IMG/VR virus record: IMGVR_UViG_3300047661_000106
Span: 1 to 22,106 of that record
Length of the DNA: 22,106 nucleotides
Reading direction: 5' to 3' (one strand)
DNA from: a virus
Of the stretch, positions 3,335-21,428 are shown in pieces. A model generated the notes under the pieces. The model saw only the letters and a list, made by a program, of their open reading frames with translations. It made no database searches and was not told where the DNA came from. Each line of letters opens with the position of its first letter. Position 1 is the first letter of the stretch. A program made the position numbers and the translations under genes.

Positions 3335-4387
3335 CTAACTTGGCGAAGAAATTTCGCTATGGGTTACCTTCGCCAAGGCTTGCTCAAGCACGCTAATGCC
3401 CGCGCCCGGTTTGTGGGCATTTTCGCTGAGATGACGCCGCCATTGGCGAGCGCCGGGCATGCCCTGGAATAGACCCAGCATATGACGGGTGATATGGCCG
3501 AGATAAGTACCGCGCGACAGCTCGCTCTCAATATAAGGAAACATGGCGGTTACGGCATCGGCCAATTCAGGATAGGGATCCACGCCGGCGAATAATTCAC
3601 TGTCTATGCGGGATAAGATTCCCGGATTTTGATAAGCCTCCCGGCCCACCATAACACCATCAAGCTGCAGCAAATGCTGCTTTGCCTCGCCGATGGATTT
3701 GATACCGCCATTGATAGCCAGCGTCAAGGAAGGGAAATCACGTTTCAATTGATAAACACGATCATAATCCAATGGCGGAATATCGCGATTTTCTTTGGGG
3801 CTCAGTCCCGTTAACCACGCCTTGCGCGCATGAATGATAAAGGTTTCGCAACCGCCGCGTTCCGCCACGGTCTGAATAAATTGGCAAAGGAATTCATAGC
3901 TATCCTGGTCATCAATGCCGATCCGGGTTTTCACCGTGACCGGGATAGACACCGCTGAACGCATCGCGGCGACACAGTGCGCCACCCGTTCAGGCTCCGC
4001 CATCAGGCAAGCGCCGAACCGGCCGTTTTGTACGCGATCCGAGGGGCAGCCGACATTCAGATTCACTTCATTATAACCGCGCTGTTCAGCCATGACCGCG
4101 CATTGCGCCAATGCCTCGGGTTCGCAGCCGCCCAACTGCAATGCCAGCGGATGCTCCGCCTCGTCATAAGCCAGATAATCCCCTTTGCCGTATAACAGCG
4201 CGCCGGTGGTCACCATCTCTGTATAAAGCAACGCACGGCGGGTCAGCAGCCGCAAAAAGTAACGGCAATGACGATCGGTCCAGTCGAGCATCGGCGCGAC
4301 GGAGAAGCGTTGGGATGGGAAATTACTGTCAATTCCGGGCTGCGCCTGGATTGCTGGCGTTGGTAACAGGGCGTTGTTTTCAAGCAT
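3335..4387 (-). CDS. dusA: tRNA-dihydrouridine(20/20a) synthase DusA
   Basis: FMN enzyme that reduces uridine at positions 20/20a of the tRNA D-loop using NADPH. The protein has 350 aa. The core runs from [21 protein letters not shown] (28-48) through [20 protein letters not shown], where C114 is the catalytic Cys, and [62 protein letters not shown] and the C-terminal [20 protein letters not shown] follow. The first 27 residues ([16 protein letters not shown]...) are unlike the E. coli N-terminus, and no good Shine-Dalgarno precedes the ATG at 4387. This is the segment that changes when elements integrate at the dusA 5' end, so the present start and leader may have come from the adjacent prophage. 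Confidence 0.96.
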
Positions 4388-4621: not shown

Positions 4622-5006
4622 TCAGCTTTTCGGTATATGGGCGGAGAGATGGGCATGTTGTTCTCGCGCAGGGATGTATCGATAAATTGTTTTGGGAGAA
4701 ACCTCTAAAATCAGCGCTGGTATCAATGGAATCCGTCAGACTGCGAAAATGTATGCCGCGATTTTTTAGATCTTCAACCAATGAAATCAGATGGCGGACA
4801 CTCCGCCCAAGCCGATCCAGCTTCCAGACGACCAGTGTGTCGCCAGGTGATAACGCCCGGAGCGCCCGATTTAAACCCGGCCGCTCAATTGAGGTGCCGG
4901 TGATTTTATCAGCAAAAATTTGTTCACAATTTGCACTCTGTAATGCATCACGCTGTAAATCGATGTTTTGGTCATTTGTTGACACGCTGATATAACCAAT
5001 CAGCAC
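4622..5006 (-). pseudogene. Serine DNA invertase (Gin/Pin/Hin family), internal deletion
   Basis: The N-terminal catalytic domain of a serine invertase is clear from LIGYISVSTNDQNIDLQRD to LVVWKLDRLGRSVRHLISL and GIHFRSLTDSIDTSA. It includes the nucleophile serine (VST) and the active-site arginines (GRS context). The expected helix-E and C-terminal part is missing: right after IDTSA the frame runs into unrelated residues. In another frame the DNA then reads ILEVSPKTIYRYIPAREQ and stops at 4622, which resembles the end of the C-terminal helix-turn-helix (family form DVALSTLYKKHPA). About 60 codons between the two parts are deleted, with a frame change near 4705-4715. I chose the GTG at 5006 because it gives the family start (M)LIGY and follows AGGGTGG. 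The gene lies just outside the fibre switch, the normal place for gin or cin. Confidence 0.85.
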
Positions 5007-5082: not shown

Positions 5083-5108
5083 TTCTCACAAACCTTGGTT
5101 CATGCGAC
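5083..5108 (+). promoter_or_regulatory. Left crossover site of the invertible segment (gix/hix-like)
   Basis: A 26-bp site centred on 5095-5096 has the dyad core AAACCTTGGTTC. Mu gix and Salmonella hix have the same AACC-NN-GGTT core. It lies in codons LTNLG of the silent fibre end. The mate is at 6842-6867 in inverted orientation. Confidence 0.8.
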
Positions 5109-5765
5109 GGGACGCTCAAGGGGCGACTGTTGAACGTACAGACAATCACATCATCAGGAAGTTATTCAAAAACGCCCGGCGCTAACTTTGCGATAGTTGA
5201 AGTAGTTGGCCCTGGTGGAGGCGGACAGGAAGCGGGGTCTACTAAAATTGTCGGCGGGGGCGGGGGTGCCGGCGCTTATGTGAAAGCTTTAATTTCAAGT
5301 TTACCAGTATCATATTCAATCATCATCGGCTCAGCTGGCACTGGCACTACTGCTTCAGTTTCCGGTGTAGCCTCTAACCCTGGAGGGGTTACAACGTTTG
5401 ACAGTTTAATAACGTGTAACGGTGGCGGCGGCGGAATATCACAGCAGCCAGTTTCCGGAGTTATATCATGTCTCGCTCCTGGCGGACTCGGTGGTGCATA
5501 TAGCTCAACTGGTGTCATTTTAATCAACGCGAGTAATGGTGCTCCAGGCGCATATGGTACTGGAATAGATCCAAACTATTTGGGCGGTAACGGAGGCAAC
5601 ACTCCCCTCGGCAACGGCGGCTTTGGCACAGCATCGGTGGGTACAATTCCCGCCACGAACGGCTCTGGATATGGGCCAGGTGGCGGCGGCAACGCATCAA
5701 TTACCACTGCCGCCCACGGCGGGAATGGCGCATCAGGTGTAGTAATTATTTGGGAGTACGCATAA
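5085..5765 (+). CDS. Silent alternative tail-fibre C-terminus (no start in this orientation)
   Basis: The open frame encodes LTNLGSCDGTLKGRLLNVQT, then a glycine-rich domain (GPGGGG, GGGGGAGAYV, CNGGGGG, GPGGGGNAS) and ends IIWEYA. The first 20 residues parallel the active fibre (LTNLGSSDGTLIGRLLNVQT), after which the two diverge, as do their likely receptors. No anchoring N-terminus or ribosome site precedes it, so it should be silent now. If inverted it would join residues 1-96 of the active gene to make a fibre of about 317 aa. The frame stays open for 221 codons past the crossover, so it has not decayed. Its TAA overlaps the ATG of the next gene (TAATG). Confidence 0.85.
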   Translation, partial: LTNLGSCDGTLKGRLLNVQTITSSGSYSKTPGANFAIVEVVGPGGGGQEAGSTKIVGGGGGAGAYVKALISSLPVSYSIIIGSAGTGTTASVSGVASNPGGVTTFDSLITCNGGGGGISQQPVSGVISCLAPGGLGGAYSSTGVILINASNGAPGAYGTGIDPNYLGGNGGNTPLGNGGFGTASVGTIPATNGSGYGPGGGGNASITTAAHGGNGASGVVIIWEYA

Positions 5766-5965
5766 TGGATCAGAATTACGCATTAGTACAAAATGGGATT
5801 GTCATCAATGTCTGTGTTTGGGATGGTGACGAGAAAAATAACCCTCTTTCCTTGCCGGACGGTGTAACGGCAGTTCTTATTCCTGAAGGTTCTCCGGCTT
5901 GGATTGGTTGGGGTTATACGGTAGCAGGCGGCTTTACTGCGCCGCCGGCAGGAACGACGGATTGA
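5765..5965 (+). CDS. Small fibre-associated protein paired with the silent fibre end
   Basis: 66 residues starting MDQNYALVQNGIVINVCVWD and ending FTAPPAGTTD. It resembles the active-side partner at 5967-6176: both have an ALVQNG or AIIENG start, an INxxVW strand, and a Y-x-FTAP end (TVAGGFTAP; the partner has TYDATSKAFTAP). Similar short sequences occur in tail-fibre assembly and accessory proteins of lambdoid phages, so a role as fibre chaperone or tip partner is plausible but inferred. The ATG overlaps the fibre stop (TAATG), suggesting translational coupling. It should be silent in this orientation. Confidence 0.7.
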   Translation: MDQNYALVQNGIVINVCVWDGDEKNNPLSLPDGVTAVLIPEGSPAWIGWGYTVAGGFTAPPAGTTD

Positions 5966-5966
5966 T

Positions 5967-6176
5967 TTATGACCCCGTGCTGGTTGTCTCAGTCGGCGCG
6001 GTAAATGCTTTGCTTGTGGCGTCATAGGTGTAGTCAATCCCGGCAACAGTGCCATTTGGGATGATAACGACAGTGCTGCCGGTGGGCGGCGTCCAGTCAT
6101 CGGCACTACCCGTAGGGCCGCTCCATACTATCGTGTTAATAACGGCACCGTTTTCAATGATTGCATAAATTGCCAT
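5967..6176 (-). CDS. Small fibre-associated protein paired with the active fibre
   Basis: 69 residues, MAIYAIIENGAVINTIVW at the start, then a Thr/Pro-rich middle and GIDYTYDATSKAFTAPTET at the end. The ATG at 6176 overlaps the stop of the fibre gene (TAATG), so it is coupled to fibre translation; an in-frame Met five codons upstream lies inside the fibre gene. It sits inside the invertible segment and is exchanged together with the fibre end. A fibre-assembly or tip role is inferred from position and from the similarity to phage fibre-assembly proteins. Its stop lies one base from that of the opposing silent gene. Confidence 0.72.
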   Translation of the reverse strand: MAIYAIIENGAVINTIVWSGPTGSADDWTPPTGSTVVIIPNGTVAGIDYTYDATSKAFTAPTETTSTGS

Positions 6177-7138
6177 TATGCATACTCCCAAACTTTCAAA
6201 TAACCTTTAAATCCACCACCTGATGCATAGCCCACGCTACTGCTATTGCTTGCTACACCAGAACCGCCGCCTCCTGGAGTGACCGCCGCATTCCCCGTAG
6301 TATTGATACCAGCGCCAGAGACGGAACCACCTAATTTTGATGCAGCCCCAAATCCACCGCGACAGCCATTCGTTTGAATAATGCAATCACCACCACATTG
6401 ACCATAATCATAATCGATCAATGTCGCGGCTGCTGACAGTGTGTAGCTGGTACGAGTGGGAGTCATGCCATAAATGGCAGGAATAGATGTTGATGACACT
6501 AATACCAATCCCCCGTTACCGCCCAAAACTGTCGCATATGTCCCGAAAGAAGTATTGCCGCCAGCAATACCAGCGGCGTTTGTTACTGAAGAACCGCCGG
6601 ACCCAATAGTTACGGTTACTGGCGTAGCCAATGCAGAAATAGGGATTAAAAATTTCAAATAACTGCCGCTACATCCGCCACCACCACCGGAATAAAACCC
6701 TGAACCATTAAGTGCACCACTCGCCCCTGATCCGCCGCCTGCAATCATTTCAACTAATGCCAGTCGTGTTCCTGGTGTTGGTGTGTACGCGCTCGACGCC
6801 GCAAAAGTCTGTACGTTCAGCAATCTGCCTATCAGCGTCCCATCGCTTGAACCAAGGTTTGTTAGAGCCGCCGCCTGAGCTACCGCACCAGCCGCTTTGA
6901 TTTCAGAAAAATTATTTGCCCTTTGCAAAAATAACGTCTGAATCGCCGCCAATACCTGCGCGTCATTGGTCGGATCGAGCGTTAACCCTCCCGTCTGCAC
7001 AATATTGATGAGCTCTCGCTGCACGGTATTGAACCACCCGGCATCAAGAATGGTGGGAGAGATACCGCTGGCCACACTGCCATCGGTAAACTCCCCGGCG
7101 GCAGTAGCGGTATTGGTGATATTGCCAATTTTTTGCAT
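6176..7138 (-). CDS. Tail fibre protein, active orientation
   Basis: 320 aa. Residues 1-96 form the constant, baseplate-anchoring part: MQKIGNITNTATAAGEFTDG, then SPTILDAGWFNTVQRELINI, a start common to tail fibres of enterobacterial phages. The crossover site lies in codons ALTNLG (92-96). The exchangeable part (97-320) begins SSDGTLIGRLLNVQTFAASS and becomes a glycine-rich domain (IAGGGSGASG, SGGGGGCSGSYLKF, GGGGSGVAS) ending in KVWEYA. Such Gly-rich ends are typical receptor-binding tips. The ATG at 7138 follows GAGGACTGATTT. It comes directly after the gp48-like baseplate gene, as in Mu and SfV. It is short for a fibre, so the particle may carry only this slim tip. Confidence 0.88.
   Translation of the reverse strand: MQKIGNITNTATAAGEFTDGSVASGISPTILDAGWFNTVQRELINIVQTGGLTLDPTNDAQVLAAIQTLFLQRANNFSEIKAAGAVAQAAALTNLGSSDGTLIGRLLNVQTFAASSAYTPTPGTRLALVEMIAGGGSGASGALNGSGFYSGGGGGCSGSYLKFLIPISALATPVTVTIGSGGSSVTNAAGIAGGNTSFGTYATVLGGNGGLVLVSSTSIPAIYGMTPTRTSYTLSAAATLIDYDYGQCGGDCIIQTNGCRGGFGAASKLGGSVSGAGINTTGNAAVTPGGGGSGVASNSSSVGYASGGGFKGYLKVWEYA
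6842..6867 (-). promoter_or_regulatory. Right crossover site of the invertible segment (gix/hix-like)
   Basis: Centred on 6854-6855, core AACCAAGGTT, it is the reverse complement of the left core. It lies inside the active fibre gene at codons LTNLG. Extended identity to the left copy is ACAAACCTTGGTTCA on the minus strand. Confidence 0.8.
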
Positions 7139-7187: not shown

Positions 7188-7784
7188 TTACCCGGCGTAG
7201 CCGAATTTTACGATGGTGTGGGATGGCGCCAGCGCTGATAACCGGCATTCAAGTTGTTTATTGCCCCATGAACGCAGTGGGTCGCTGCAATAACTCAGGC
7301 CGCATTGCGCATAGGAAATTGTTGTGGTCGGCGCATTGACCAGCCAGGTAAAGGGGTAATCATTGCCGTTGAGCGCATCGCCGCAGACAGACATGCCGGC
7401 GCAGGCTTGCCGATAAACACTGATCGTGACGGTATAGCCCAGCGAGGCGGCCACACAGATAAAATAGGCTATAGATTGACCGCCGGTGCTGAAGAGTTTT
7501 GACGTAACCGCCTTTTGCCGCAGCGCAATGCTGTCCGTTTCTCCGATAGCGCAATCATCCGGCAGAGCTAGCGTGTTCTCCCACTCGCTAAGCAAAATGG
7601 TGGCGGTGGCCGGGAACGCGCCAACCAGTAATGCCTGTGCCGCGTCATCGCTTTGCTGATAGCTGTTGGCCAGTGCGCTCATTACGGCTGTCTGCACCGC
7701 GTCGGAACTCTTGGGCCACACTGCCCCCACCGGCATTAATGACTGAAACGCGCCGGTATAATCATCAACGGTGAATTTACTCAT
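7188..7784 (-). CDS. Baseplate protein, Mu gp48 / DUF2313 family
   Basis: 198 aa. Mu gp48-type proteins are baseplate wedge components that link the wedge to the fibre. Seen here are MSKFTVDDYTGAFQSLMPVG, WPKSSDAVQTAVMSALANSY, LLSEWENTLALPDDC and the C-terminal YAQCGLSYCSDPLRSWGN with a Cys-rich pattern, all typical of this family. The start overlaps the stop of the baseplate J gene (ATGA), and the fibre gene follows after 49 bp. The gene order gp47-gp48-fibre is that of Mu and SfV. It appears intact. Confidence 0.88.
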   Translation of the reverse strand: MSKFTVDDYTGAFQSLMPVGAVWPKSSDAVQTAVMSALANSYQQSDDAAQALLVGAFPATATILLSEWENTLALPDDCAIGETDSIALRQKAVTSKLFSTGGQSIAYFICVAASLGYTVTISVYRQACAGMSVCGDALNGNDYPFTWLVNAPTTTISYAQCGLSYCSDPLRSWGNKQLECRLSALAPSHTIVKFGYAG

Positions 7785-8923
7785 AAGTAAGTTACCGTGC
7801 CCCGCACCGGCAATCCGCCGGTCGCCATGGTGATATTGGCCGTCGGCGATGTCAGGATAAAACCGTCGGCGCCATCAATATCCGCAATGGCCGCCATTAG
7901 ATCCGAAAGATAAATTGTGCCGCCAGGTGCACCCTCGGTGAAGAAAACATTATCGATCGCAGTGGCAATCGCTGCCGTGGTGGTAGCATCGGCATTGGTG
8001 AGGCCGCTGATGTCGAAATTTACCGGGGTGGCAATAGGGGAACAAACATACACCAGAGCGGTGACCGGTTGCAGCGGGTAGATATTATCTGCGACCCGCA
8101 ACTGATCGCCCGTGGCCCTGACGGCGCCCCAGGTTTCCAGCGAAGAAATGCCATTTGTCCCAACGGGAAAACCGTGATTAGTGGTATCGCCGCCATCGCA
8201 CATGACATAGACTCCGACGGTACCCGCGCCCATCAGTCGGCGCACGACCCATACCCGCGTCACACCAGCAACAGCCAGTGCCCAGGACGCGTAATCGGCG
8301 TCGTTGCCGCCCTGCGGGGTATCCTGATAGGCCAACAGCATTCGTGAACGAAACGCCGCTTCGGATTCAATATCCGCCCCGCCGGTAATGGCCACCGTCG
8401 CCGTGGCCTGGCTGCTGACGCCTTCAATGGCGACATCGAGACTTAATAACGTACCGGCATCGGCATTGCCCGCTTCACCGCCGCCCGTGATATCGGTGGT
8501 AGGGTCGGGAAGGATCGCGGTAATGGATCCGATGGCCGTTCCAGCTGAACCGAGGGTAATACCGTTATCCAGGGTATATTGGTATCCGTCGCTGCGATTT
8601 AGCACAGCGGCCGTCGGTAGGACCGCCCCTGCGGCGCCGGTAAAGGCGACCGTCGGACAACGCGCGGCATAAGCCGTTTTTTGCGTTACATTTTTCAGCG
8701 CCGCCCAGGCGGCCAGATATTCATCCGTCGCGGTATAGGGGGTAGCTTGCTGCGCAATCCAGTCAAGATAACCGTAATGCAAATACGTTAATCCCGCGTC
8801 GGCATCCCCCAGAACGCCCAAATTGGAAAACCGCAGCAAGGCGCCGATGTTTTTTAATTCCGACTGAATAAACGCCGCATTTCGCTGGCGTAATTCGGTC
8901 AATGTCGGTCGATTGAATGGCAT
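7781..8923 (-). CDS. Baseplate J-like protein (Mu gp47)
   Basis: 380 aa wedge protein of contractile-tail baseplates. N-terminal MPFNRPTLTELRQRNAAFIQ, then HYGYLDWIAQQATPYTATDE and AARCPTVAFTGAAGAVLPT. The core is SEAAFRSRMLLAYQDTPQGG, followed by DYASWALAVAGVTRVWV, the signature of the family, and the C-terminal domain contains PVTALVYVCSPIATPVNFDI. It overlaps gp48 by ATGA and follows gp46 with three bases between. Full length, no break seen. Confidence 0.93.
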   Translation of the reverse strand: MPFNRPTLTELRQRNAAFIQSELKNIGALLRFSNLGVLGDADAGLTYLHYGYLDWIAQQATPYTATDEYLAAWAALKNVTQKTAYAARCPTVAFTGAAGAVLPTAAVLNRSDGYQYTLDNGITLGSAGTAIGSITAILPDPTTDITGGGEAGNADAGTLLSLDVAIEGVSSQATATVAITGGADIESEAAFRSRMLLAYQDTPQGGNDADYASWALAVAGVTRVWVVRRLMGAGTVGVYVMCDGGDTTNHGFPVGTNGISSLETWGAVRATGDQLRVADNIYPLQPVTALVYVCSPIATPVNFDISGLTNADATTTAAIATAIDNVFFTEGAPGGTIYLSDLMAAIADIDGADGFILTSPTANITMATGGLPVRGTVTYL

Positions 8924-8926
8924 ATA

Positions 8927-9358
8927 TTACTCCCAGGCCCAGGAATATTTGAACGACGACGAATCTCCGTTCGGTTTAAAGAAAACAAGCTGCATATACA
9001 GCCGGTTCGGATAGACGATCTGGGTCGTAATCTGGATGCTGCTGACCACGCCGTCATCGATCAGCCACTGCAAGGCCTCGGTGGCATAATCTTCCGCTTT
9101 GCCCGCAATGGCCGCGGTCAACTTCTGGCGTTTCAACAGCCACAAGCGTGAACCTATTTGATAATCCGAGCCGGTATCACCCCACCAGCCTCGGCGATCA
9201 TTGCCGTCGTAATCATCGTCATTTCGGGCCAACCGATCGGTAAAGAGGCTGATCAAAATAGCCGTCTCCAAATCATTACCGCTGATTAAATCGCCCAACC
9301 CGGGCTGCCAATCGCCTAACGATTGCCCGCCATTCCAGATCGTTGTGATATCGGTCAT
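8927..9358 (-). CDS. Baseplate wedge protein, Mu gp46 / P2 W-like
   Basis: 143 aa. It resembles Mu gp46 (the gp25-like wedge component): DLISGNDLETAILISLFTDR, DRRGWWGDTGSDYQIGSRLW, LLKRQKLTAAIAGKAEDYA and EALQWLIDDGVVSSIQI. The RRGWWGD motif is diagnostic of this group. The start overlaps the stop of the spike gene (ATGA), so translation is probably coupled. It appears intact. Confidence 0.92.
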   Translation of the reverse strand: MTDITTIWNGGQSLGDWQPGLGDLISGNDLETAILISLFTDRLARNDDDYDGNDRRGWWGDTGSDYQIGSRLWLLKRQKLTAAIAGKAEDYATEALQWLIDDGVVSSIQITTQIVYPNRLYMQLVFFKPNGDSSSFKYSWAWE

Positions 9359-11021: not shown

Positions 11022-12433
11022 GAGGACAGCGCCTTGAAGGTGGATGGCATAAATGCCGGGTGAACCGGATCGGCCATTTTGACTAGCGCTTCGGCGCGGG
11101 CGGCATCCTGATACAAACGATTGGCCAGATATAAAGCGGGCAGCGCAGTATTAAAACTGACGGTTTTTATGGGCGCTAAATTTGCGCCCGCGTTTTGCAA
11201 GGTGGCAACCACGGTTTCACGCAACACCTGCAATTCACCATAAACTTCGTCATAACCCGCATCGGCAATGGTCCTTGTCACAGTATCAATAACCGTGATC
11301 ACCCGTGTCAGCACGTTCATCGCATCATCGTAACTGGATGGCGTATATTGCGCGGCGACATTGGCCATGGCGCCGGCGGCCAGCGTAATAAAATAATATT
11401 GAGCGGCGGCGGTAATCTCACTGTCGCTGATATCAGGACGGTAGGTGGTATCGCTGAAACCGGCGAGCGTTTCCCATACCAGGATTAAATCGCTTTGGCT
11501 CGGTATACTGTTATTGATAGCACTCACCGCCGCCTGAACATTATCCGAAAAATCCGCCACAGAGGTCGAAGCCAGTAGCGTCACTGTCGCCGTATCAATC
11601 GTGGCGCGGTTTTCAACCGATGCAGCGATTTTCTGGGCTACCAGAGCCTCATAGTCCGTCGTGTCGGCCGTATTGCTGATGCTGCCATCAGTACTGGAGA
11701 CGCTACCGGAGACACTGCCGCCGACAGTGCCATCGTTATAGCGGCCATAACGGGTACTGCCAAAGGTGGATTTAAGCGTATTGCTTAAATTCGTCGCCTG
11801 GTCAGCAACATTGTCCACCATTGCGGTCCAAAACCCGCCATTGCCGTTCAGAATTCTAAGCGCCTGGGTGACGGTTCGTAGATCCCCGCTGACTTCAGAA
11901 ATAAACGTGGCGGCGGTTTTGGCCGCCAGCGAAAGCCAGGAGGTATTAACTGTTGAAACGGCGCTGACACTACTGGTAATGGCGAATACTTTCAGTCCCG
12001 ACTCAATGACAGTCAGGGTAAATTCAAATACGCGCCCGGCGATGCTCTCGCTTATTTGCAAGCCGCCATCGGGTATGCTGACCGTCAGCTCGCCGAGCGT
12101 TGGATGAACCAATGTTCCGGGGCCAAGGGTTTCACATGCCGCCACCAGCAAATCCCGTTGCGTCATCACATCCGAAGCGCTATACAGCAGGCTGTCCTGC
12201 ACGATAAAGCCGTGCAGCGTTAATTTTCGAACAGAACGGCCAATATCCTCAATCATCGCAGTATCACGATAGGGATATTCATGAACCGCCTGGCGCCGGC
12301 CAAAGGTTCCCTCGCCTGTTTCAACGGCAAAAGGCACGCCGCGAAATGAAGCCGGGTGGAGATGTTCAGACCAGTTCCAACTTTCGCTGGAACCGCCCAG
12401 GATAACGGATAATTTTTGACTTAATATGGACAT
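11018..12433 (-). CDS. DNA circularisation / tail protein gpN (Mu gp43)
   Basis: 471 aa. The N-terminal DNA_circ_N domain is clear: SWNWSEHLHPASFRGVPFAV, FGRRQAVHEYPYRDTAMIED and GRSVRKLTLHGFIVQDS, then ACETLGPGTLVHPTLGELTV and GRVFEFTLTVIESG. In Mu the protein is a tail and baseplate component despite its name. The rest is Ala/Ser/Thr-rich helix, with ARAEALVKMADPVHPAFMP at the end. The ATG at 12433 follows GGGGTAAACT. Upstream is a 161-bp gap that breaks the otherwise tight tail operon and holds an antitoxin-like remnant. Confidence 0.92.
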   Translation of the reverse strand: MSILSQKLSVILGGSSESWNWSEHLHPASFRGVPFAVETGEGTFGRRQAVHEYPYRDTAMIEDIGRSVRKLTLHGFIVQDSLLYSASDVMTQRDLLVAACETLGPGTLVHPTLGELTVSIPDGGLQISESIAGRVFEFTLTVIESGLKVFAITSSVSAVSTVNTSWLSLAAKTAATFISEVSGDLRTVTQALRILNGNGGFWTAMVDNVADQATNLSNTLKSTFGSTRYGRYNDGTVGGSVSGSVSSTDGSISNTADTTDYEALVAQKIAASVENRATIDTATVTLLASTSVADFSDNVQAAVSAINNSIPSQSDLILVWETLAGFSDTTYRPDISDSEITAAAQYYFITLAAGAMANVAAQYTPSSYDDAMNVLTRVITVIDTVTRTIADAGYDEVYGELQVLRETVVATLQNAGANLAPIKTVSFNTALPALYLANRLYQDAARAEALVKMADPVHPAFMPSTFKALSS

Positions 12434-12594: not shown

Positions 12595-14235
12595 TTAAGC
12601 ATAGGACATTGCGGCAGTCACTTTTGGACCGGTGGCTGTGATAACGTTTCGTTTACCTGTTTGGCTATTGATTAGGGTAAGTTCAATTTGCATTGAGTTA
12701 TTATTCATGGCAGTAATATCAGTTTTGCCCGTTGATGAGTCAGGAGAATTTAAAGCGCTTCCTAATTTTGGCGCGTTAATATTAGCTGGTTCCTTAATCG
12801 GAGTTGGCCTCTTGACAGATTTTTTTCTATGCGTAGAAGCCTCTTCTGATGTTTTTTTTGCATACCAAGGCCTATCACCAACTGGCCAATAATTTGTTAA
12901 TCTTTGCTTCGCTGCCTTCTCATAATTCAGTGTTTCTTGGCTTAATGGCTCAGCTTTCTTGTCATTCCTTTTTTTGTACCTAGAAGCCCCGGCATTATAA
13001 GCCGCGAAGGCCTGGGGGACATTACCATGGAAAGTTTTCAAATTATCTGAAAGTTTCTGTGCAGCGGCGTCCGCTGATTTATAAAAATCCATTCTATCTG
13101 CTTGAGTAATTAAATTATATTCCTTTCCTGAACTCGGCATAAATTGAAAAGGCCCTTCCGCTCCTGCGGGAGAACGCAGGTAGATTCCTCTAGACGACTC
13201 TAAAAGATAATCGAGATCCATGCTACCCGGCGGTAAAATATATTGTGTATCTAAATGCGCCAGATATTGAGCCCTACGAGCTTTTTCGTCTGATGGAATA
13301 TAGACTGCTCTTTGCTTTTCCCCACTAACCTTTTTTGTATTTTGTGCAAGCTGTACGACGTTATAGGACTCGTTCTGGATAGGTTTTTTTGCCTTCAATT
13401 CATCCAAACCTGCCTTTTTCGCTATATTCAAGTCGAACTGATTAACCACAGCCTGCTTAGACTGTGGCTGCTTCTCGTCAGGACCTCTTACATTCCGAGA
13501 AATTCTAGCCAGTCTGTCATGCTGACTACGATCTAACATATATGGAACTTCATTACTAGCTTGGTGAAGATTATTCGGCGTATCAAGAAATAAATTAGTT
13601 CCATTACCTAATATATTCTGTAAGACTGGCGGTAATGACATCAGCCGTTTAAGTATATTGTCTACCTGTGGATTATTACCCGAGCCAACCTTATTTTTGT
13701 TATGCAACATTATTACTTGAGATGGTAATAATCTGTTAAATTTATTTTCATAATCTTGGGTTGTATTGGAAATATGTTGAATGAGTGATGTTTTGATATT
13801 TTTAGTATCGCCGCGAGCAGCACTATTTTCCTTTATAGACTCGGTATTTTTTGCAACCGCCTCCGTAGGCTTATCCATATTTTTACCATTGCTTATTATG
13901 CGCTCTCCTTTTTCCGCAAAATTCACCACCCCCTTTTTCACCCGTTCAATGACGTTGGCCAAACCGTTTAACCCCACGTTCAGTTCGGTCAGTGTATTCA
14001 GTGGTGGGATAGATTTATCGATAGATTGCTTATCGCCCTGGGCATTTTTCGCTACCCCCTGTGATTTTTCACCTAACGCCGCAAAACCGGTTATCGATGA
14101 CTGTCCAACCAGTTGCAACCCAATTCGGATCTGATCCAAAGAGATTTGCAGGTTTTGTATCGCTGCTTGTATTCGCTGGAGCGAAGCAATTACCTGATCA
14201 TTCTCTTCCAGCTCAAAATCAAATGACTTAGTCAC
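12595..14235 (-). CDS. Tape measure protein with lytic transglycosylase domain
   Basis: 546 aa; sets tail length and here can also cut peptidoglycan. The N-terminal 110 residues look like a Mu-type tape measure (LEENDQVIASLQRIQAAIQN, then helical repeats). Residues about 325-425 form a goose-type/SLT lytic transglycosylase fold: LLESSRGIYLRSPAGAEGPF with the likely catalytic E346, QFMPSS, and AFAAYNAGASRYKK. The end (MQIELTLINSQTGKRNVITA) is again tape-measure-like. No clear transmembrane segment is seen, which is unusual. The start is GTG at 14235 after AGGGGG; it overlaps the end of the frameshifted chaperone ORF. Codons in about 12650-13900 are distinctly AT-rich against the neighbours, so the middle is probably acquired. 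Confidence 0.82.
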   Translation of the reverse strand: MTKSFDFELEENDQVIASLQRIQAAIQNLQISLDQIRIGLQLVGQSSITGFAALGEKSQGVAKNAQGDKQSIDKSIPPLNTLTELNVGLNGLANVIERVKKGVVNFAEKGERIISNGKNMDKPTEAVAKNTESIKENSAARGDTKNIKTSLIQHISNTTQDYENKFNRLLPSQVIMLHNKNKVGSGNNPQVDNILKRLMSLPPVLQNILGNGTNLFLDTPNNLHQASNEVPYMLDRSQHDRLARISRNVRGPDEKQPQSKQAVVNQFDLNIAKKAGLDELKAKKPIQNESYNVVQLAQNTKKVSGEKQRAVYIPSDEKARRAQYLAHLDTQYILPPGSMDLDYLLESSRGIYLRSPAGAEGPFQFMPSSGKEYNLITQADRMDFYKSADAAAQKLSDNLKTFHGNVPQAFAAYNAGASRYKKRNDKKAEPLSQETLNYEKAAKQRLTNYWPVGDRPWYAKKTSEEASTHRKKSVKRPTPIKEPANINAPKLGSALNSPDSSTGKTDITAMNNNSMQIELTLINSQTGKRNVITATGPKVTAAMSYA

Positions 14236-14652
14236 TTAGCCCCCTTATCCGGTTGATTCGCTCCGCCTGTTCTGCCCACCAGCATAATTCGCTCCATGAT
14301 AGGGACCAGGTTTCCCTGGGCCCCCAGCGATAATAAAATGCCACGTCGGCAATCAGTTCCCGCCATTGTCCGTTGTCGGGGAGTAGTTCAAAAAACCCAG
14401 CAAATACTCCTCACAGGATTTGTAGTCGGTAAAGGCCATCTTTTTAATCACTTCACGCGGCACTGCGGACAACAGGGCAATTAATAACCCCATGGCGCTC
14501 AATGCCCCCGCTTTGGCCTGTTCATCATAAAACTGCTGAACTTGGAGTAATGTTGGTTCGCTGAGATCAATGGCCTCCCAGGTCTGCTTGCCGCTGTTGT
14601 CCGAAATCGGTTTCACCAGCGGGAAGGTTTTACTTCTTTCTTGTTCCGCCAT
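14228..14652 (-). CDS. Tail assembly chaperone, -1 frameshift extended form (GpE'/gp41-42 type)
   Basis: The 99-residue chaperone (14353-14652) has a slippery run near its end: GGGTTTT and TTTTTTG (plus-strand 14389-14398), both in the X-XXY-YYZ phase for -1 slippage after codons CTG-GGT-TTT-TTG. Slipping back one base continues as FELLPDNGQWRELIADVAFY, then YRWGPRETWSLSWSELCWWA and EQAERINRIRGLSD, ending at 14228. ELIADVAFYYRWGP and the WAEQAERI end match the GpE-type extension of tail chaperones (family form IADIAVIFHWPPSEL...). The product would have 141 aa. Contractile-tail phages make this longer form at low rate to recruit tube protein and tape measure. The extension fills the apparent gap before the tape measure exactly. 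Confidence 0.85.
14353..14652 (-). CDS. Tail assembly chaperone, short form (Mu gp41-like)
   Basis: 99 aa. MAEQERSKTFPLVKPI followed by WEAIDLSEPTLLQVQQFYDE and MGLLIALLSAVPREVIKKMA match the Mu gp41/TAC family, whose members coat the tape measure during tail assembly and are absent from the finished tail. It follows the tube gene by one base and is the upstream partner in the -1 frameshift described for 14228-14652. The normal stop lies 14 codons after the slippery site. Confidence 0.9.
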   Translation of the reverse strand: MAEQERSKTFPLVKPISDNSGKQTWEAIDLSEPTLLQVQQFYDEQAKAGALSAMGLLIALLSAVPREVIKKMAFTDYKSCEEYLLGFLNYSPTTDNGGN

Positions 14653-14653
14653 A

Positions 14654-15022
14654 TCAGTTCTCCGTTACCGAACCGCCTTCCCAGCGGATATCGAGCGTCG
14701 CGTCAGTGGAATTCACTTCCTGGGTATTCACCGACCACATGCCCGACCCGATGATGGTTTTGCCGTTGGCCAACTCGGCGACGACGGTGACATTGGTCTG
14801 ATTGTTGAAGTCCGCCACGGTCGTACCGCCGCTATCGCGCAACTGACAGGCGATATACGGCGCATTCGGCGTTTCCCGATAACCATGTACCCCATCCATG
14901 CCAGTGAGCGTTTCCCGTTTAGTAATGGAAGGGCTGTATTTGAATTGCCCCGCCACCATCACAGTGATGCCGTCGCAGGTCACATATGCGGTACCGGCGA
15001 GACGATTAGTTGTATCACCCAT
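14654..15022 (-). CDS. Tail tube protein (Mu gpM / gp40)
   Basis: 122 aa; forms the inner rigid tube through the sheath. MGDTTNRLAGTAYVTCDGIT, VAGQFKYSPSITKRETLTGM, DGVHGYRETPNAPYIACQLR and GSGMWSVNTQEVNSTDATLD, ending IRWEGGSV, are characteristic of the Mu-type tube family. It lies directly after the sheath and before the chaperone, the fixed order in Mu-like tails. It appears intact. Confidence 0.94.
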   Translation of the reverse strand: MGDTTNRLAGTAYVTCDGITVMVAGQFKYSPSITKRETLTGMDGVHGYRETPNAPYIACQLRDSGGTTVADFNNQTNVTVVAELANGKTIIGSGMWSVNTQEVNSTDATLDIRWEGGSVTEN

Positions 15023-15037
15023 ATAAATGATTTCCTT

Positions 15038-16528
15038 TTAAGCCGCCGGTTGCAGGCGGAACTGATTAAGCAACGCAAAGATGCGCAACTGGTTGATTAA
15101 CGTGCCATCCCAAAGAACGTCCACCCGGTTAGGATTGGTTGCGTTCTGTTCAACGACCAGCCCGGAGGCGAAGGCGGTGGAGTCTTGTACATAGCCGCCA
15201 TTTTCCAGGGCGGTGTATTGGGCAATAAGCTCGGCGCGAATGGTATTCGGCGTCACAATCGCCGATCCGGCGGCAAACCGGGTGCCGTCAGCGGCCAACT
15301 TCATCCGGGCAAACTTTGAGGTAATCTGTGTGCGGATATAGCGGGTGACGTACATCAGCAAAAACAGGGTTTCAACTTGCAGATAACTGTCATCGGCATT
15401 GCCGTAAGCGTTGGTTTGGTAAGTGGTGATGACATTCTCGATTTGCACCGAGCCGTCATCGGCCACGGTAACGGTGGAAATCCCGCTATACAGCAGGTTA
15501 TTGCGTTCGGTCAGGGTAAAGCGCGATGCCAACGGCGGTGCCAGGACGCCGCTTACCGTCAACGTTTGCAATGGACGGCCGGGGTCATTCCGCAGACTGC
15601 CGGCAATCGCGCCATAAACGGCCGCCGACCAGATATATGCCGGTGTCGGCGAGTCATAAATACCCACCAGCGAGGCATGCTGATCGTTCCGCGCCTCGCC
15701 TGCGGCGGTCAGTTGACCAAGGGTACCGGCCAACACGCCCAGAGAGTGGCCGTAAAGCTGCGAGGCATAACTCCAGCGACCGGTGCCGTCCGACAAAAAG
15801 GCCTTAACCGCATCCAGGGAAGTCGTATCCGTGTAGGGGTTGACGATAAAATCGAATGTCTGGTCACCCAGATTGGCCAGAGCGTCAGTGAGGTCTGGCG
15901 CGCCGGCGCCGGCGCTCATCGGTGAGATAGTCAGAGCTAACCCGGCCGGTGTTTGCTCACCACCCGCGCTGCCTAAATAGTTCAACCGCAGATCGATATC
16001 ATTGCCATGCGCGCCTTTGTTTTTCGCCGTCAATGTCACCGCGCCGGCAACGGCGACAGCGGTCACCGGCAGCGAGGATGTTCCATTGATCGCAGCCGCC
16101 AGGGCGGTGGCGATATCAGCGATAGTATCGGTAGCCACCACGGATATTTGGACGCGCGTGCCGGCGACATACAATGAAATAACGCCAGTGTCAGTGGCGG
16201 CGCTGGTGATGGTCAACGTGCCTTCCGCTGCGACCATCGCACTCCCATCCACCAGCGGCAGTAGATAGATTTCCGCTGAGGAATCATTCGCGAGATAAGC
16301 CGTCATCAGGTTATGCAACATAGAGCCGGCGCCAAACACCCCGGCCACCGTTGATGCGGAGGATTCGATGATTGGCGTATTTTCGCTGATAGGCGTAGCC
16401 ACCGTCATCTGGCCGAGGATTAATGTTCGCTGGGTGGCGGTAGCCGTATTGGCTTGTGAATTATCGAACTCGGCAAAAAACAGCGGTGTGCGCAAATTGC
16501 CGGGAATATTACTGAACGAGATTGTCAT
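15038..16528 (-). CDS. Contractile tail sheath protein (Mu gpL / gp39)
   Basis: 496 aa. N-terminal ISFSNIPGNLRTPLFFAEFD and QRTLILGQM, insertion domain with ISLYVAGTRVQISVVATDTI through TLTAKNKGAHGNDIDLRLNY, core GDQTFDFIVNPYTDTTSLDA and SLVGIYDSPTPAYIWSAAVY. The C-terminal part has LTERNNLLYSGISTVTV and LQVETLFLLMYVTRYIRTQI, then IRAELIAQYTALENGGYVQD, all typical of Mu-type sheath. It shows that the particle is contractile. The start overlaps the stop of the gp38-like gene (TAATG). No break seen. Confidence 0.95.
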   Translation of the reverse strand: MTISFSNIPGNLRTPLFFAEFDNSQANTATATQRTLILGQMTVATPISENTPIIESSASTVAGVFGAGSMLHNLMTAYLANDSSAEIYLLPLVDGSAMVAAEGTLTITSAATDTGVISLYVAGTRVQISVVATDTIADIATALAAAINGTSSLPVTAVAVAGAVTLTAKNKGAHGNDIDLRLNYLGSAGGEQTPAGLALTISPMSAGAGAPDLTDALANLGDQTFDFIVNPYTDTTSLDAVKAFLSDGTGRWSYASQLYGHSLGVLAGTLGQLTAAGEARNDQHASLVGIYDSPTPAYIWSAAVYGAIAGSLRNDPGRPLQTLTVSGVLAPPLASRFTLTERNNLLYSGISTVTVADDGSVQIENVITTYQTNAYGNADDSYLQVETLFLLMYVTRYIRTQITSKFARMKLAADGTRFAAGSAIVTPNTIRAELIAQYTALENGGYVQDSTAFASGLVVEQNATNPNRVDVLWDGTLINQLRIFALLNQFRLQPAA

Positions 16529-16749
16529 TATTTAGTGTCCTCCGCTGCCGTATCGGTTGCGGTCGTCTGAGTGGTTTTCACAGTATTCGGGACTGCGGCC
16601 GGTGTCGCGGCGGCCGATAAAGACACATCCGCGTCACGCAGTCGCCTGCGCCAAAAGGTATTGTCCGGCACTTCGGCGCCGGAAATGGGCAATAGAATGC
16701 CCTTCACCGGGTCGCGCACCGCGCGCCCGGCATTGGGTTTCACAAACAT
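16528..16749 (-). CDS. Mu gp38-like small tail protein (DUF2635)
   Basis: 73 aa. MFVKPNAGRAVRDPVKGILL and PISGAEVPDNTFWRRRLRDA, then DV, match the short DUF2635 group that sits just before the sheath gene in Mu-like phages. Its exact job is unknown. The last 30 residues are Ala/Thr-rich (TVKTTQTTATDTAAEDTK) and go beyond the conserved part. Translationally coupled to the sheath gene. Confidence 0.9.
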   Translation of the reverse strand: MFVKPNAGRAVRDPVKGILLPISGAEVPDNTFWRRRLRDADVSLSAAATPAAVPNTVKTTQTTATDTAAEDTK

Positions 16750-16762
16750 GGGTTACTCCAAA

Positions 16763-17359
16763 TTATTGAGGCAGATTGATAGTGACCACGGGTTCAGTGG
16801 TGTTGGCAGGCATAACGATAGTGGTATCGATACCGGCAAGAGGAACGGACGCTACGGGATAAAAATCTTCCGGTCCCTGGTAATATTCAATATCCATTTC
16901 CATAAAAAGTTGGACGATTTGCCCTGCGCTGCAGGTGCTGAGATCCATCCGTGAACGAATGGATTTAAATTGCTGTATTTGCCGAGTCAGATCATAACTA
17001 TTGATCACCGCCTGCTCGGCCTGTTCACGGATTGCTTCTAAAGCAGGTTGTGCCGTGATGGCGCCTTCATTGACTGTACTCGTCGCGCCGGTGGTGCTGG
17101 TTGTGGATGAGGCACTGGTCGTGGATGTAGTGCCGGCCGGTTGTTGCATCTGAACAGCAATTAATACCGTCGTCGTCGTCGTGAATTGTGGCGCATTTGG
17201 GCCGAGAGAGTGTTTTTCGTCATAGATGGTTTGAACCAATATGGCGGGATAGGTATTGGCGAAAGTAGACCAACTCAGGGGCGAAAAAACATTATTCCCG
17301 GCATTTGTTTTACCCATAAGCGCGGTAACCACTAATTCTATCAACGTGATCGCATTCAT
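16763..17359 (-). CDS. Tail terminator / Mu gp37-position protein with Ser/Thr-rich insert
   Basis: 198 aa. By position (between connector and gp38/sheath) it should be the tail-end or terminator protein (Mu gp37, DUF1834-like). Recognisable parts are MNAITLIELVVTALMGKTNA, WSTFANTYPAILVQTIYDEK, and LEAIREQAEQAVINSYDLTR, then VQLFMEMDIEYYQGPEDFYP. Residues about 76-96 are a low-complexity run of Thr, Ser, Ala and Gly that looks like an inserted linker between two beta-rich halves. The start overlaps the connector stop by four bases. Family assignment is mainly from position. Confidence 0.65.
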   Translation of the reverse strand: MNAITLIELVVTALMGKTNAGNNVFSPLSWSTFANTYPAILVQTIYDEKHSLGPNAPQFTTTTTVLIAVQMQQPAGTTSTTSASSTTSTTGATSTVNEGAITAQPALEAIREQAEQAVINSYDLTRQIQQFKSIRSRMDLSTCSAGQIVQLFMEMDIEYYQGPEDFYPVASVPLAGIDTTIVMPANTTEPVVTINLPQ

Positions 17360-17688
17360 AGCGTGCTTACCTCATTCAAAATAAGAATACTTCCACCATG
17401 GATATCTGGCTGGACATGATTGATCACAAATAGTGTGTGTAACCTATAGATAAATAGCCGGTCGCCATTATTGGGCTGGGTCCTGAATGCCAAGGCGCGC
17501 GCCCTCAAAACAGGATGGTGGGGGCTGATTACAGGGCCTTCATCAATAAATTGAGTTCGCTCGATATTACCCCGATCAAATATGCCGGTAATATCGTATG
17601 CCGCACCCATGGCAGGCCTGTAATTTACCGGCTCCCCAAAAATGTCCTGCAGCTGAGCCAGCAAAGTGATATCCCAATCCATGCCCAT
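17356..17688 (-). CDS. Head-tail connector protein (lambda FII-like)
   Basis: 110 aa. It resembles small head-tail joining proteins of the FII/Gifsy-2 group: acidic N-terminus with DWDITLLAQLQDIFGEP, then GAAYDITGIFDRGN, HPVLRARALAFRTQ, NNGDRLFIYRLHTLFVINHV and QPDIHGGSILIL. In an intact phage it joins the capsid portal complex to the tail. Here it is the only head-side gene left, since no portal or capsid gene is seen upstream. The ATG at 17688 follows GAGGGTCATC. It is coupled to the next gene by overlap. Confidence 0.72.
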   Translation of the reverse strand: MGMDWDITLLAQLQDIFGEPVNYRPAMGAAYDITGIFDRGNIERTQFIDEGPVISPHHPVLRARALAFRTQPNNGDRLFIYRLHTLFVINHVQPDIHGGSILILNEVSTL

Positions 17689-17735
17689 GATGACCCTCGA
17701 ATTGCAATCGGCGCTTAGACGTGCCGTTAGCCTAA

Positions 17736-18065
17736 TTAACGATATTTTTCTTTGAGCGCGACGAGATCGGCTTCAGCCTCTGCGCCAAAAACTTCAATGC
17801 CGTGCTCAACGAAAGCGACGAATTTATCGAATTCCGCTTTGGCCATGTCCAAAGGAGACAGCGTAGCCGGTACCACCGGGATGGGGACTGGCTCAATTGA
17901 AGGCGCGGCGGTGACTGAGGGTTGGATTGCTGATGCGGTAATATCGCTCACATTTATTTCCTTTATTGTTTCGATTTTCGGTTCAGTATCAATGGTCGCC
18001 CCGGTAGTAACTTGGGCAGGTTTGATATAGATGGCATTGAGCCATGCTAAAAAATGGTTAATCAT
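17736..18065 (-). CDS. Unknown phage protein between lysis and connector genes
   Basis: 109 aa, not recognised as a named family. The N-terminus MINHFLAWLNAIYIKP is followed by a Thr/Ile/Pro-rich middle (SIEPVPIPVVPATLSPLDMA) and an acidic helical end (KFVAFVEHGIEVFGAEAEAD followed by LVALKEKYR). That end resembles C-termini of small unassigned phage proteins, but I cannot give a function. It overlaps the spanin stop (ATGA), so it is co-translated with the lysis genes. It stands where terminase and capsid genes would begin in a lambdoid phage, 47 bp before the connector, so a deletion joint may lie on either side of it. Confidence 0.75.
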   Translation of the reverse strand: MINHFLAWLNAIYIKPAQVTTGATIDTEPKIETIKEINVSDITASAIQPSVTAAPSIEPVPIPVVPATLSPLDMAKAEFDKFVAFVEHGIEVFGAEAEADLVALKEKYR

Positions 18066-18586
18066 TTTTGCGCCTCGATTTGCCGAATGCTCGCCAAATG
18101 GTTATTCGCCGTATCAATCGTAGCCAATAAAGGCATTATCCATAACACTGCTTGGCAATATGTCAGGGCGCCGGAGGCAGTGGCGTTAATAGGGGCGCTG
18201 TGAGTTCCGAGGGTATTGGCGTCGAGGGCGCTGGCACGTAAACGGTTCGCGTAGTTGTACAGGCCGTCAGAAACAGCGGTAGGAACATCAAGAGCGCAGG
18301 TCGGCTCTTTTTTAAGAAGGGTGCGATACTCAATTTGTTTTACCTCGACAGTAGCGGCATTCTGCTTGTCGTTTTGCAGCGCTGCGGCAGTAATATCGTT
18401 AAATTTTTGAAAGTCGAAAGACTGTTTAGCTATTTCTGTGGTTTGCAACGCAGTATCGCTTTGCATTTGCGACAAAGTCACAGCGGACGCTGCGGTTTTT
18501 CCATAATAATGAAAGGCGACCCACATCAGCACTGAAATAAGCAAAGCGAGAAGTAACGTCACCATAATTGCGAATTTGTTAATCAT
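18062..18586 (-). CDS. Inner-membrane spanin (Rz-like)
   Basis: 174 aa. N-terminal membrane anchor INKFAIMVTLLLALLISVLM (about 2-24) with a short cytoplasmic end, then a long polar helical periplasmic part rich in Gln/Ala/Asp (about 35-85), and the conserved-looking KKEPTCALDVPTAVSDGLYN followed by YANRLRASALD. It would fuse inner and outer membranes with the lipoprotein encoded inside it. The ATG at 18586 overlaps the endolysin stop (ATGA); an upstream in-frame Met lies within the endolysin gene. The embedded Rz1 frame makes the spanin call strong. Confidence 0.85.
   Translation of the reverse strand: MINKFAIMVTLLLALLISVLMWVAFHYYGKTAASAVTLSQMQSDTALQTTEIAKQSFDFQKFNDITAAALQNDKQNAATVEVKQIEYRTLLKKEPTCALDVPTAVSDGLYNYANRLRASALDANTLGTHSAPINATASGALTYCQAVLWIMPLLATIDTANNHLASIRQIEAQK
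18163..18333 (-). CDS. Outer-membrane spanin lipoprotein (Rz1-like), embedded
   Basis: 56 aa in another frame inside the Rz-like gene, too short for usual ORF cut-offs. It begins at TTG (18333) after GAGG, 9 bases upstream: (M)SIAPFLKKSRPALLMFLPLF, then LTAC, a lipobox with Cys25. The mature part is proline-rich and 31 residues long: TTTRTVYVPAPSTPIPSELT, then APLLTPLPPAP. The basic-hydrophobic-lipobox start and Pro-rich mature chain are the signature of Rz1 o-spanins, which span the periplasm from the outer membrane to meet Rz. It is fully contained within Rz, as in lambda. The start codon is the least certain part. Confidence 0.85.
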   Translation of the reverse strand: MSIAPFLKKSRPALLMFLPLFLTACTTTRTVYVPAPSTPIPSELTAPLLTPLPPAP

Positions 18587-19080
18587 GTTTGCTGACCCAT
18601 AAAACACAGTTGCCTATCGATTTCTCGACGATTAATCAATCCCTTGTTGCGTTGGCCATTAACCCTCACCCACTGACGCAGATCGTTACATGCCTGGGAT
18701 ATATTGCCGGAATTAATATGGCGCAATAAAGATGAATTTTTGTAGGCGGTGATTCCTACATTAAAAGCAAATGAATAGAGTGCGGCTCGGGTGTAATTGT
18801 CCATAGGCACTTTTACAGTGGAATCGACTATTTTCTTAACCGGCGCTAAATCATGCTCGAGTAATGCGCCGCATTCTTCATCGGAATAATATTTCCCCGG
18901 GATCACATCTTTGCCGGTATGACCATCACAGACGGTCCATACTCCCGCCACATCGCGATAGGCAGTATGTTCAGTTCCTTCCACCCCATAGGGTCCGGGA
19001 AGGTAGGCAACCGTGATAGCCATTGCCCCGCCCGCCGCGGCCGATACTATTTTATTCCTCAGTTGCGGTGACATTGCCAT
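18583..19080 (-). CDS. SAR endolysin (phage 21 R-like lysozyme, GH24)
   Basis: 165 aa. Muramidase with the catalytic triad E34-(8)-D43-(5)-T49 in VEGTEHTAYRDVAGVWT, followed by VCDGHTGKDVIPGKYY. ALYSFAFNVGITAYKNSSLL and GLINRREIDRQLC are the family's C-terminal landmarks. The weakly hydrophobic, Gly/Ala-rich N-terminus (KIVSAAAGGAMAITVAYL) is a signal-anchor-release segment: the enzyme is exported tethered and inactive, and is freed when the membrane depolarises. The ATG at 19080 (AGGA 5 bases upstream) is preferred; a second ATG at 19074 aligns with the R21 start. It overlaps the holin gene by 29 bp. Confidence 0.92.
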   Translation of the reverse strand: MAMSPQLRNKIVSAAAGGAMAITVAYLPGPYGVEGTEHTAYRDVAGVWTVCDGHTGKDVIPGKYYSDEECGALLEHDLAPVKKIVDSTVKVPMDNYTRAALYSFAFNVGITAYKNSSLLRHINSGNISQACNDLRQWVRVNGQRNKGLINRREIDRQLCFMGQQT

Positions 19081-19411
19081 TTCCGTCCTGCTCAGTCTCG
19101 ACTAAGACCCGATTAACTTTCTGCACAATTTCACCAGCCTGACTGACATCATGCATTGGCGAGCCATTTAAAAAATCGACGATCGCTTTAGTCCGTTGCT
19201 GATCAAATATCAGACGTTCTTGCGCCAGTTTCCGATTAAGTGTTTCCGTCTTACGTTTATCGACATATCCGAGCAATGAAATAATCGCGCCAATTACTGC
19301 CATAAATATATAAATCAATTCCATCGTCGACAGTCCCATCAGGCTAGAAAGCAACATGGCTAACGCCCCGCCGTGCATTGCGATATCTGATTTGTCATTC
19401 ATCAGTTTCAT
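19052..19411 (-). CDS. Holin or pinholin with dual start
   Basis: 119 aa, first gene of the lysis cassette. Two hydrophobic segments (about 13-31, GGALAMLLSSLMGLSTM; and 32-49, ELIYIFMAVIGAIISLLGY) are followed by a charged cytoplasmic tail (VDKRKTETLNRKLAQERLIF). The start reads MKLMNDKSD: two Met codons with a Lys between, as in phage 21 S (MKSMDK) and lambda S (MKMPEK), where the longer form is the inhibitor. The first ATG (19411) has GAGG six bases upstream; the second is at 19402. With a SAR endolysin next, a pinholin is more likely than a large-hole holin. The family was inferred from topology and position. Confidence 0.78.
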   Translation of the reverse strand: MKLMNDKSDIAMHGGALAMLLSSLMGLSTMELIYIFMAVIGAIISLLGYVDKRKTETLNRKLAQERLIFDQQRTKAIVDFLNGSPMHDVSQAGEIVQKVNRVLVETEQDGNGNVTATEE

Positions 19412-19708
19412 ACTCCACCTCGGAAATGCAGGTGTATTGTGATAGAGGGTTCGTCTCCACGTCGTAGGCGCGTGTAAAGGATATTGTGAGCGTCAGATTT
19501 GACGAGGAGACGAAAAAGAAAAAGGCCGCCTGAAGGCAGCCTTTATAATTTTTTTCGATTGTTACGCCGTAATTTTCTCTCTAGGTTAAAACTTTTGCTG
19601 ACCGGTAGCAGCGTATTTTATCAACCAGGAGAAAGTGCGCGTTATTTATTGGCGATGGCCATGAAACGCGGTATTTATGCATTCAAGTATTGTACGTTGT
19701 AACCAGTG
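19412..19708. other. Q-to-lysis intergenic region (late control region)
   Basis: About 300 bp without a supported gene between the Q-like antiterminator and the holin. It holds the terminator at 19510-19544. In lambdoid phages the late promoter pR', the Q-binding site and terminator tR' sit here in this order. I could not pick a convincing -35/-10 pair for pR' by eye. Confidence 0.6.
19510..19544 (-). terminator. Late terminator (tR'-like), candidate Q target
   Basis: On the minus strand AAAGGCTGCC-TTCA-GGCGGCCTTT forms a 10-bp stem with one U:G pair, followed by TTTTTCTTTTT. It blocks late transcription just before the lysis genes, where Q antitermination is expected to act. Confidence 0.85.
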
Positions 19709-20149
19709 TTACCACATTACCTCTAATTTTTCGGGCCGAGATAGTGTTTTTTTCGGTTTTTCTAAAATAATTGTTTTTTGCACATAAGGGTCCATTTCCA
19801 GGCTCGCATCAGTCATGGCCAAACAGCCCTCAATGAAACCTTCAGCGACTTGCAACTGTCGACGAATTTCTCTTTCACTGCATTTCCTACGCCTGGCTAT
19901 AGCGGATTTTGATTGCCCGTAAACATAATGCATGAGTATCAGATTGAGTTCCTCAGGTTGCCTAACCTTCCGTAAGCACCCAACAGCGGTATCGATGATC
20001 AATCCGTCATCATCGCAACATGACTCGAATTTGCTGGCCGATCTGGGTAATAACCCTTTAAAACCGGCAGCAATATGCGAGTAATCAAGACCGGAATTAT
20101 CCCTCGCCCAGATTCCCCAACGTTCAAGCACTAATTGAATATTACGCAT
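19709..20149 (-). CDS. Antitermination protein Q (phage 82 Q-type)
   Basis: 146 aa. It loads on RNA polymerase at the late promoter so that transcripts pass the downstream terminator and reach lysis and tail genes. MRNIQLVLERWGIWARDNSG, then LDYSHIAAGFKGLLP and CCDDDGLIIDTAVGCL match phage 82-type Q. The C-terminal helix-turn-helix-like part is SKSAIARRRKCSEREIRRQL followed by QVAEGFIEGCL. I chose the ATG at 20149 (GGGGGAAACAG upstream); the longer frame runs into the replication gene. It overlaps the initiator stop by 8 bp, so nothing is left of a lambda-type P, ren or nin region. Confidence 0.88.
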   Translation of the reverse strand: MRNIQLVLERWGIWARDNSGLDYSHIAAGFKGLLPRSASKFESCCDDDGLIIDTAVGCLRKVRQPEELNLILMHYVYGQSKSAIARRRKCSEREIRRQLQVAEGFIEGCLAMTDASLEMDPYVQKTIILEKPKKTLSRPEKLEVMW

Positions 20150-21146: not shown

Positions 21147-21231
21147 GACAACCCCTTGCGATTTCCCTGAACCACTCGGTGCCATCGGCATAGCCATTGG
21201 GCGACGTAGTTTTATTATTCGCTTGTCTCAC
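21136..21231 (-). CDS. Short leader ORF upstream of the initiator (31 codons)
   Basis: GTG at 21231 with the strong site GGGGGAAGATT upstream gives 31 residues, beginning (M)RQANNKTTSPNGYADGTEW and ending CHEH. It overlaps the start of the initiator gene by 11 bp in another frame, so it may couple translation. I do not recognise the product. The good ribosome site is the main support. Confidence 0.4.
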   Translation of the reverse strand: MRQANNKTTSPNGYADGTEWFREIARGCHEH

Positions 21232-21388: not shown

Positions 21389-21393
21389 GGACC

Positions 21394-21412: not shown

Positions 21413-21428
21413 ATTATCTAATACTCCA

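Follow-up and report, generated by a model that had tools for sequence, protein, structure and literature searches.

Results

The window, by which we mean the whole stretch of 22,106 nucleotides that was analysed (IMG/VR virus record IMGVR_UViG_3300047661_000106), carries a fibre locus with two alternative tips next to baseplate genes. From left to right, the locus consists of an invertase remnant (−), a crossover site, a fibre tip without a start codon (tip A, +), two small accessory ORFs (ORF A, +; ORF B, −), the fibre gene with tip B and the second crossover site (−), and the Gp48-like and Gp47/J-like baseplate genes (7188-8923, −; PF10076 and PF04865), which are the direct upstream neighbours of the fibre gene. 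In its expressed orientation the fibre gene (6176-7138, −; PF21722, phrog_863) encodes a protein of 320 aa composed of a constant N-terminal part and tip B, and residues 33-117 of this protein match the N-terminal part of the phage Mu fibre S (PDB 5yvq, E = 2.4e-7; also 8ju3). The silent tip A (5091-5765, +) is rich in glycine and startless, its frame being open from 4983 to the stop at 5765, and like tip B it is a Gly_rich_2 domain (PF21722, E = 4.9e-12 for tip A). ORF A (5765-5965, +; 66 aa) and ORF B (5967-6176, −; 69 aa) are about 40% identical and both belong to phrog_14370; these paired small proteins (window 5765-6176) stand where fibre assembly genes would be.

The core AACCTTGGTT is found at 5091-5100 on the + strand and its reverse complement at 6850-6859, both reading AACC-TT-GGTT in inverted arrangement, that is, the AACC-NN-GGTT pattern with a matching central dinucleotide. 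The corresponding crossover sites extend over 5083-5108 (+), adjoining the invertase remnant, and 6842-6867 (−), within the fibre gene, and N-L-G is encoded in frame at both cores. AACCNNGGTT occurs three times in the window versus 0.36 times expected, a count that 1 of 100 shuffles reached. The true signal is an inverted repeat of 60 nt (5084-5143 and 6807-6866, 83% complementary) that contains both cores. A third AACCNNGGTT core, at 11207-11216, lies inside a tail gene and is without a partner.

Both sites are in frame, one with the constant fibre gene and the other with the startless alternative tip, and inversion in silico at the core centres gave an uninterrupted fibre of 317 aa versus the native 320 aa. 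The two tips are alike for about 20 residues past the site and diverge afterwards. AlphaFold2 models of tip B and tip A (mean pLDDT of 85.6 and 81.0, respectively) both match the cyanophage Pam3 fibre and Bxb1 tail-tip chains (tip A to Pam3: E = 4.6e-9), and because its model matches these structures, tip A still has the appearance of a whole tip. The anatomy that the earlier note had read from the letters is thus borne out: inverted cores in the same fibre codons, a fully open second C-terminus that lacks a start, near-identity of the first 20 residues past the site, preservation of the frame upon inversion at about the predicted lengths, and two Gly-rich tips of the receptor type.

The invertase gene that adjoins the left site (about 4658-5006, −) is broken, and a complete serine invertase is absent. 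Its N-terminal part (4716-5006, −; PF00239), which starts about 77 bp from the site and corresponds by tblastn to residues 1-97 of a 189-aa Gin, is 79% identical to the invertase of Yersinia phage 56.17 (189 residues) and 71% identical to SfMu Gin. A C-terminal remnant equivalent to residues 165-184 (4658-4717, −; tblastn 70%, E = 3e-7) follows out of frame, and the alignment coordinates imply by arithmetic that about 203 nt are missing between the two pieces, with a frameshift as the result. This deletion presumably takes the end of the catalytic domain, the oligomerisation helix and most of the DNA-binding domain. In addition, the conserved Arg of the YxRVS motif, which we take to be a catalytic residue of the invertase family, is replaced by Ser in the window; Yersinia phage 56.17, Salmonella phage MET_P1_103_31, SfMu, Y. 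ruckeri and G179 all have the Arg in their invertases. Between the window and a contig of another record (L002), 2 of 6,155 bases differ, neither of them in the invertase.

For comparison of the sites, we surveyed 82 near-full Gin loci, 33 of which have a strict core beside Gin (the other 49 were dropped); the 33 Gin-side sites and 16 partner sites yielded 32 distinct 26-mers. In a separate listing of sites, one row had an empty site. At tip-side position +6, the first base after GGTT, all 32 distinct comparison sites from these 33 of 82 loci carry T. Both window sites carry C at this otherwise invariant position, as do the fibre joints of the related elements L019-L023, which have no nearby invertase. 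We infer that the +6 base matters for site binding. The window site closely resembles the perfect inverted site of 19 nt found in Yersinia phage 56.17.

A genome scan with the fibre alignment returned 29 loci, one of which has an invertase in the stretch examined. This locus, from Y. ruckeri ATCC 29473 (L039), encodes a 190-aa Gin; its inverted sites occupy the same position in the fibre, are separated by 1,661 bp, and are accompanied by two tips that each have their own accessory gene. A second intact homologue resides in genome G179, whose Gin is 79% identical to the N-terminal part in the window. Among the relatives we sampled (79 loci of 218 relatives and, in another set, 80 of 249), 1,045 bp are inverted at 97.8% identity between L130 and L132 with both flanks collinear (93.8% and 95.7%), and 1,432 bp are inverted at 100% identity between L141 and L145, whose collinear flank, of 638 bp, is confined to the Gin side. 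Overall, at least 41 of the 620 pairs with matches show both orientations, a count that includes mosaic tips. Judged from these alignments, a Gin-type switch of this kind works in nature, because homologous Gin segments occur in both orientations. Yersinia pekkanenii (L055:4107-8772) has three consecutive matches to the fibre N-terminal part.

The opposite orientation, which had been proposed as something to look for in sister genomes, did not turn up in the lineage of the window: tip B is joined to the fibre N-terminal part in all four lineage contigs with the joint (the window, L002, L003 and L004), and tip A was found at this position in none of them (0/4 inverted, among the matches listed at >70% identity). 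A search of viral contigs with the tip-A protein returned only L025, which is L002 reversed. With four joint-bearing contigs, a rare opposite orientation could have been missed. Three other contigs (L005, L006 and L007) have a backbone 99.1-99.5% identical to that of the window and a different distal tip cassette past the joint, with a tail-collar-like tip and an assembly-type gene as well as, in L005 and L006, a transposase (names read from translations); an invertase was not found in the cassettes of these three contigs. The alternative cassette is located at L005:2607-6115 and recurs in L006 and L007. One sister-cassette comparison used a chosen set of 12 loci (>78%).

In L005-L007, 12 mismatches fall within the 82 nt from 6878 to 6959, upstream of the joint, and 0 between 6960 and 8959. 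Because the mismatches cluster upstream of the site, homologous exchange appears to fit the tip replacement in these contigs better than recombination at the core, and a site-specific swap of tips exactly at the core was rejected. For a SNP at 8960 and the block 9028-9131, each of the four possible combinations with the two types of tip is seen, as if cassettes were recombining among backbones; chimeric assembly may also account for it.

The late genes of the carrier element follow the order Q, holin, lysozyme, spanin, then head-closure Hc1 and tail, so that the spanin region lies directly beside Hc1 and the tail genes without a head module (17356-18607, −). The same adjacency of lysis and tail is seen in L235, which aligns without gaps over 13100-21146 (99.975% identical), and in L252 (99.90% over 17069-22106). 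Terminase, portal and capsid families had no match among the 25 window ORFs scanned, the region between lysis and tail included. In Y. ruckeri, a head module (terminase, portal, protease and capsid, as read from ORFs with no family search) is located upstream of the same tail; in G179 lysis runs straight into the tail, forming a headless locus. One feature of R-type tailocins, a contractile tail with lysis genes and no head or packaging genes, is found in the window up to CI; another, the lack of replication and excision genes, is not, as the window retains an O-like initiator (20142-21197) and CI, and L002 encodes an excisionase-like protein (phrog_1300; Pfam PrtN) and has an attP-like junction. 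Given the lack of head genes at the place where they are expected, the switch may arm a tailocin, or an element on its way to one, rather than a phage.

The 5' end of dusA, with the attachment region, lies at 4284-4387 (−) and is also present in L002, with early phage genes next to it. L002 and the window match up to about dusA codon 35 and then part, and the element supplies the dusA 5' end, as dusA-integrated elements do according to the available part of PMC4482086. From L002:6069-6155 onward, the dusA 5' end is joined to early genes including the PrtN/excisionase-like protein, a junction as would be expected for an excised circle or a tandem copy. Among the ORFs in the window and L002, which cover part of the element, we found no dusA-type tyrosine integrase. 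The closest dusA, at 80%, is that of Sodalis sp. dw_96 (best among 295 genomes drawn from a larger family group), and because of this match the host is probably a Sodalis-like enterobacterium.

Discussion

The locus is probably a decayed Gin-type fibre switch that is now frozen and keeps tip A as a silent spare. As far as its sequence tells, it resembles a Gin-type switch in its mode of working and descends from one, yet lacks two of the features tested for a functional switch, a complete invertase and sites that keep the invariant position. The explanation that best accounts for the whole, to which we assign a probability of roughly 85%, is the remnant of a Gin-type two-tip switch, frozen at the distal terminus of a Mu-like contractile-tail operon in dusA of a Sodalis-like host. 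The invertible fibre switch of the earlier note therefore stands with respect to its Gin-type anatomy, the position of its sites and the retention of the frame, but not with respect to present-day switching: an active switch was rejected as the main reading on the grounds that the invertase is frameshifted and has lost its Arg, that both sites are off consensus and that a single orientation is found.

On the model of the intact homologues, an ancestral serine invertase encoded beside the distal site would have flipped the segment of 1.76 kb, joining the constant fibre N-terminal part to one or other of the tips, A or B, and each tip would have had an accessory ORF of its own. In the window lineage a deletion has destroyed the invertase, and the segment would now be frozen in the tip-B orientation unless an outside invertase acts in trans. 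The pattern of mismatches suggests that tip variation among sister contigs arises when the whole distal cassette is replaced by way of the homologous tract in the fibre N-terminal part.

As invertases can act on the segment of another element (PMC12529663, in the portion available), the frozen state is unprovable from sequence, and the switch would be live if a complete invertase of another prophage or locus in the same host acted in trans. Such action has precedents in PinQ, which inverts the e14 segment (same portion of PMC12529663), and in xenorhabdicin loci, which are without an invertase while one is encoded elsewhere in all 97 genomes (PMC13280938, as far as its accessible text goes), and it would be in keeping with the intact state of tip A and its accessory ORF; with the opposite orientation absent from four contigs and both sites off consensus, however, we consider it unlikely. 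If instead the locus had never been a switch, homologous exchange would have brought in tip A as an inverted second tip, and the AACCTTGGTT core would reflect nothing more than the codon usage of the conserved NLG joint. Indeed, a near-identical joint occurs in fibres without a nearby invertase (L019-L023, L034 and L042), and tip cassettes exchange through the neighbouring tract, but the Gin-family gene sits at the predicted place, in the Mu order, and intact orthologous switches exist on the same tail backbone, which also led us to reject coincidental cores; the chance that no switch ever operated here is accordingly very small.

Metagenome contigs can be chimeric or collapsed, and the lesion in the invertase could in principle be an error of assembly in an otherwise normal switch. 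Yet L002 comes from another record and is identical over the invertase region, and the replacement of Arg by Ser is a lesion separate from the deletion, making this explanation scarcely credible.

For the frozen remnant that we favour, the open silent tip and its accessory ORF could reflect either recent loss of the invertase or continued use. It is conceivable, though we hold it to be rather doubtful, that in this headless and excision-capable element the silent tip still serves, either because invertases from prophages in the same host flip it or because sister elements draw on it as a store when cassettes are exchanged. If this were true, tip diversity would have moved from the individual switch to the population.

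A close known counterpart in layout is the G segment of Mu and SfMu (Gin, gix, S-U / S'-U'), with which the locus shares gene order and orientations, an invertase gene at the distal site and inverted sites in the fibre gene; the available part of PMC4406740 gives the annotated order in SfMu as invertase, fibre, assembly, assembly and fibre genes. The window fibre is also homologous to Mu S in its N-terminal part. By contrast, crossover in the window falls at fibre residues 94-96 versus near residues 166-174 of S in SfMu, the window invertase is broken, small phrog_14370 ORFs replace ordinary assembly genes, and the role in host range is putative. The Y. ruckeri ATCC 29473 locus resembles the window in its Gp47-Gp48-fibre backbone, in placing the site at the equivalent L-NLG codons and in having two tips along with two accessory genes, and differs from it by its intact Gin, consensus sites and upstream head module.

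Carotovoricin, a Pectobacterium tailocin with the Ein invertase, is similar by description in having a headless contractile tail and an invertible fibre locus; in the consulted portion of PMC13195805, ein is reported to be missing from about half of the loci and fibre loci to be swapped by homologous recombination. This type of evolution, invertase loss with exchange of fibre loci, is hence already known from Pectobacterium tailocins, whereas a description of the present lineage was not found in the literature searched. The window element differs from carotovoricin in retaining features of a phage, namely an O-like initiator, CI and an attachment region. Enterocoliticin, a tailocin of Y. enterocolitica, is likewise comparable by description, through its Mu-like baseplate and tail gene order (PMC13030884, in the part at hand), and the main text of that source mentions neither an invertase nor inversion; the headless locus of G179 looks like the enterocoliticin type. 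The window and L002 resemble dusA-integrated islands and prophages in supplying a new dusA 5' end (PMC4482086, same part as above), and differ from them in that an integrase gene was not seen in the window and L002. As for the switching of phage host range that the earlier note mentioned, the term phage is itself uncertain with head genes absent where expected, and the tips may set the killing range of a tailocin rather than the host range of a phage.

The locus captures a switch that has lost its enzyme and that can be set beside intact relatives sharing its tail backbone. Together with the Y. ruckeri locus, which has heads, and the headless G179, it offers a natural series on the fate of fibre switches without invertase, and this series also bears on a possible takeover by cassette exchange at the level of the population, which the consulted portion of PMC13195805 proposes for Pectobacterium tailocins. 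As a separate observation on head modules, comparison of L246/L233 with L247/L039 revealed a common tail with an intact switch, a head module being present in just one of the two cases.
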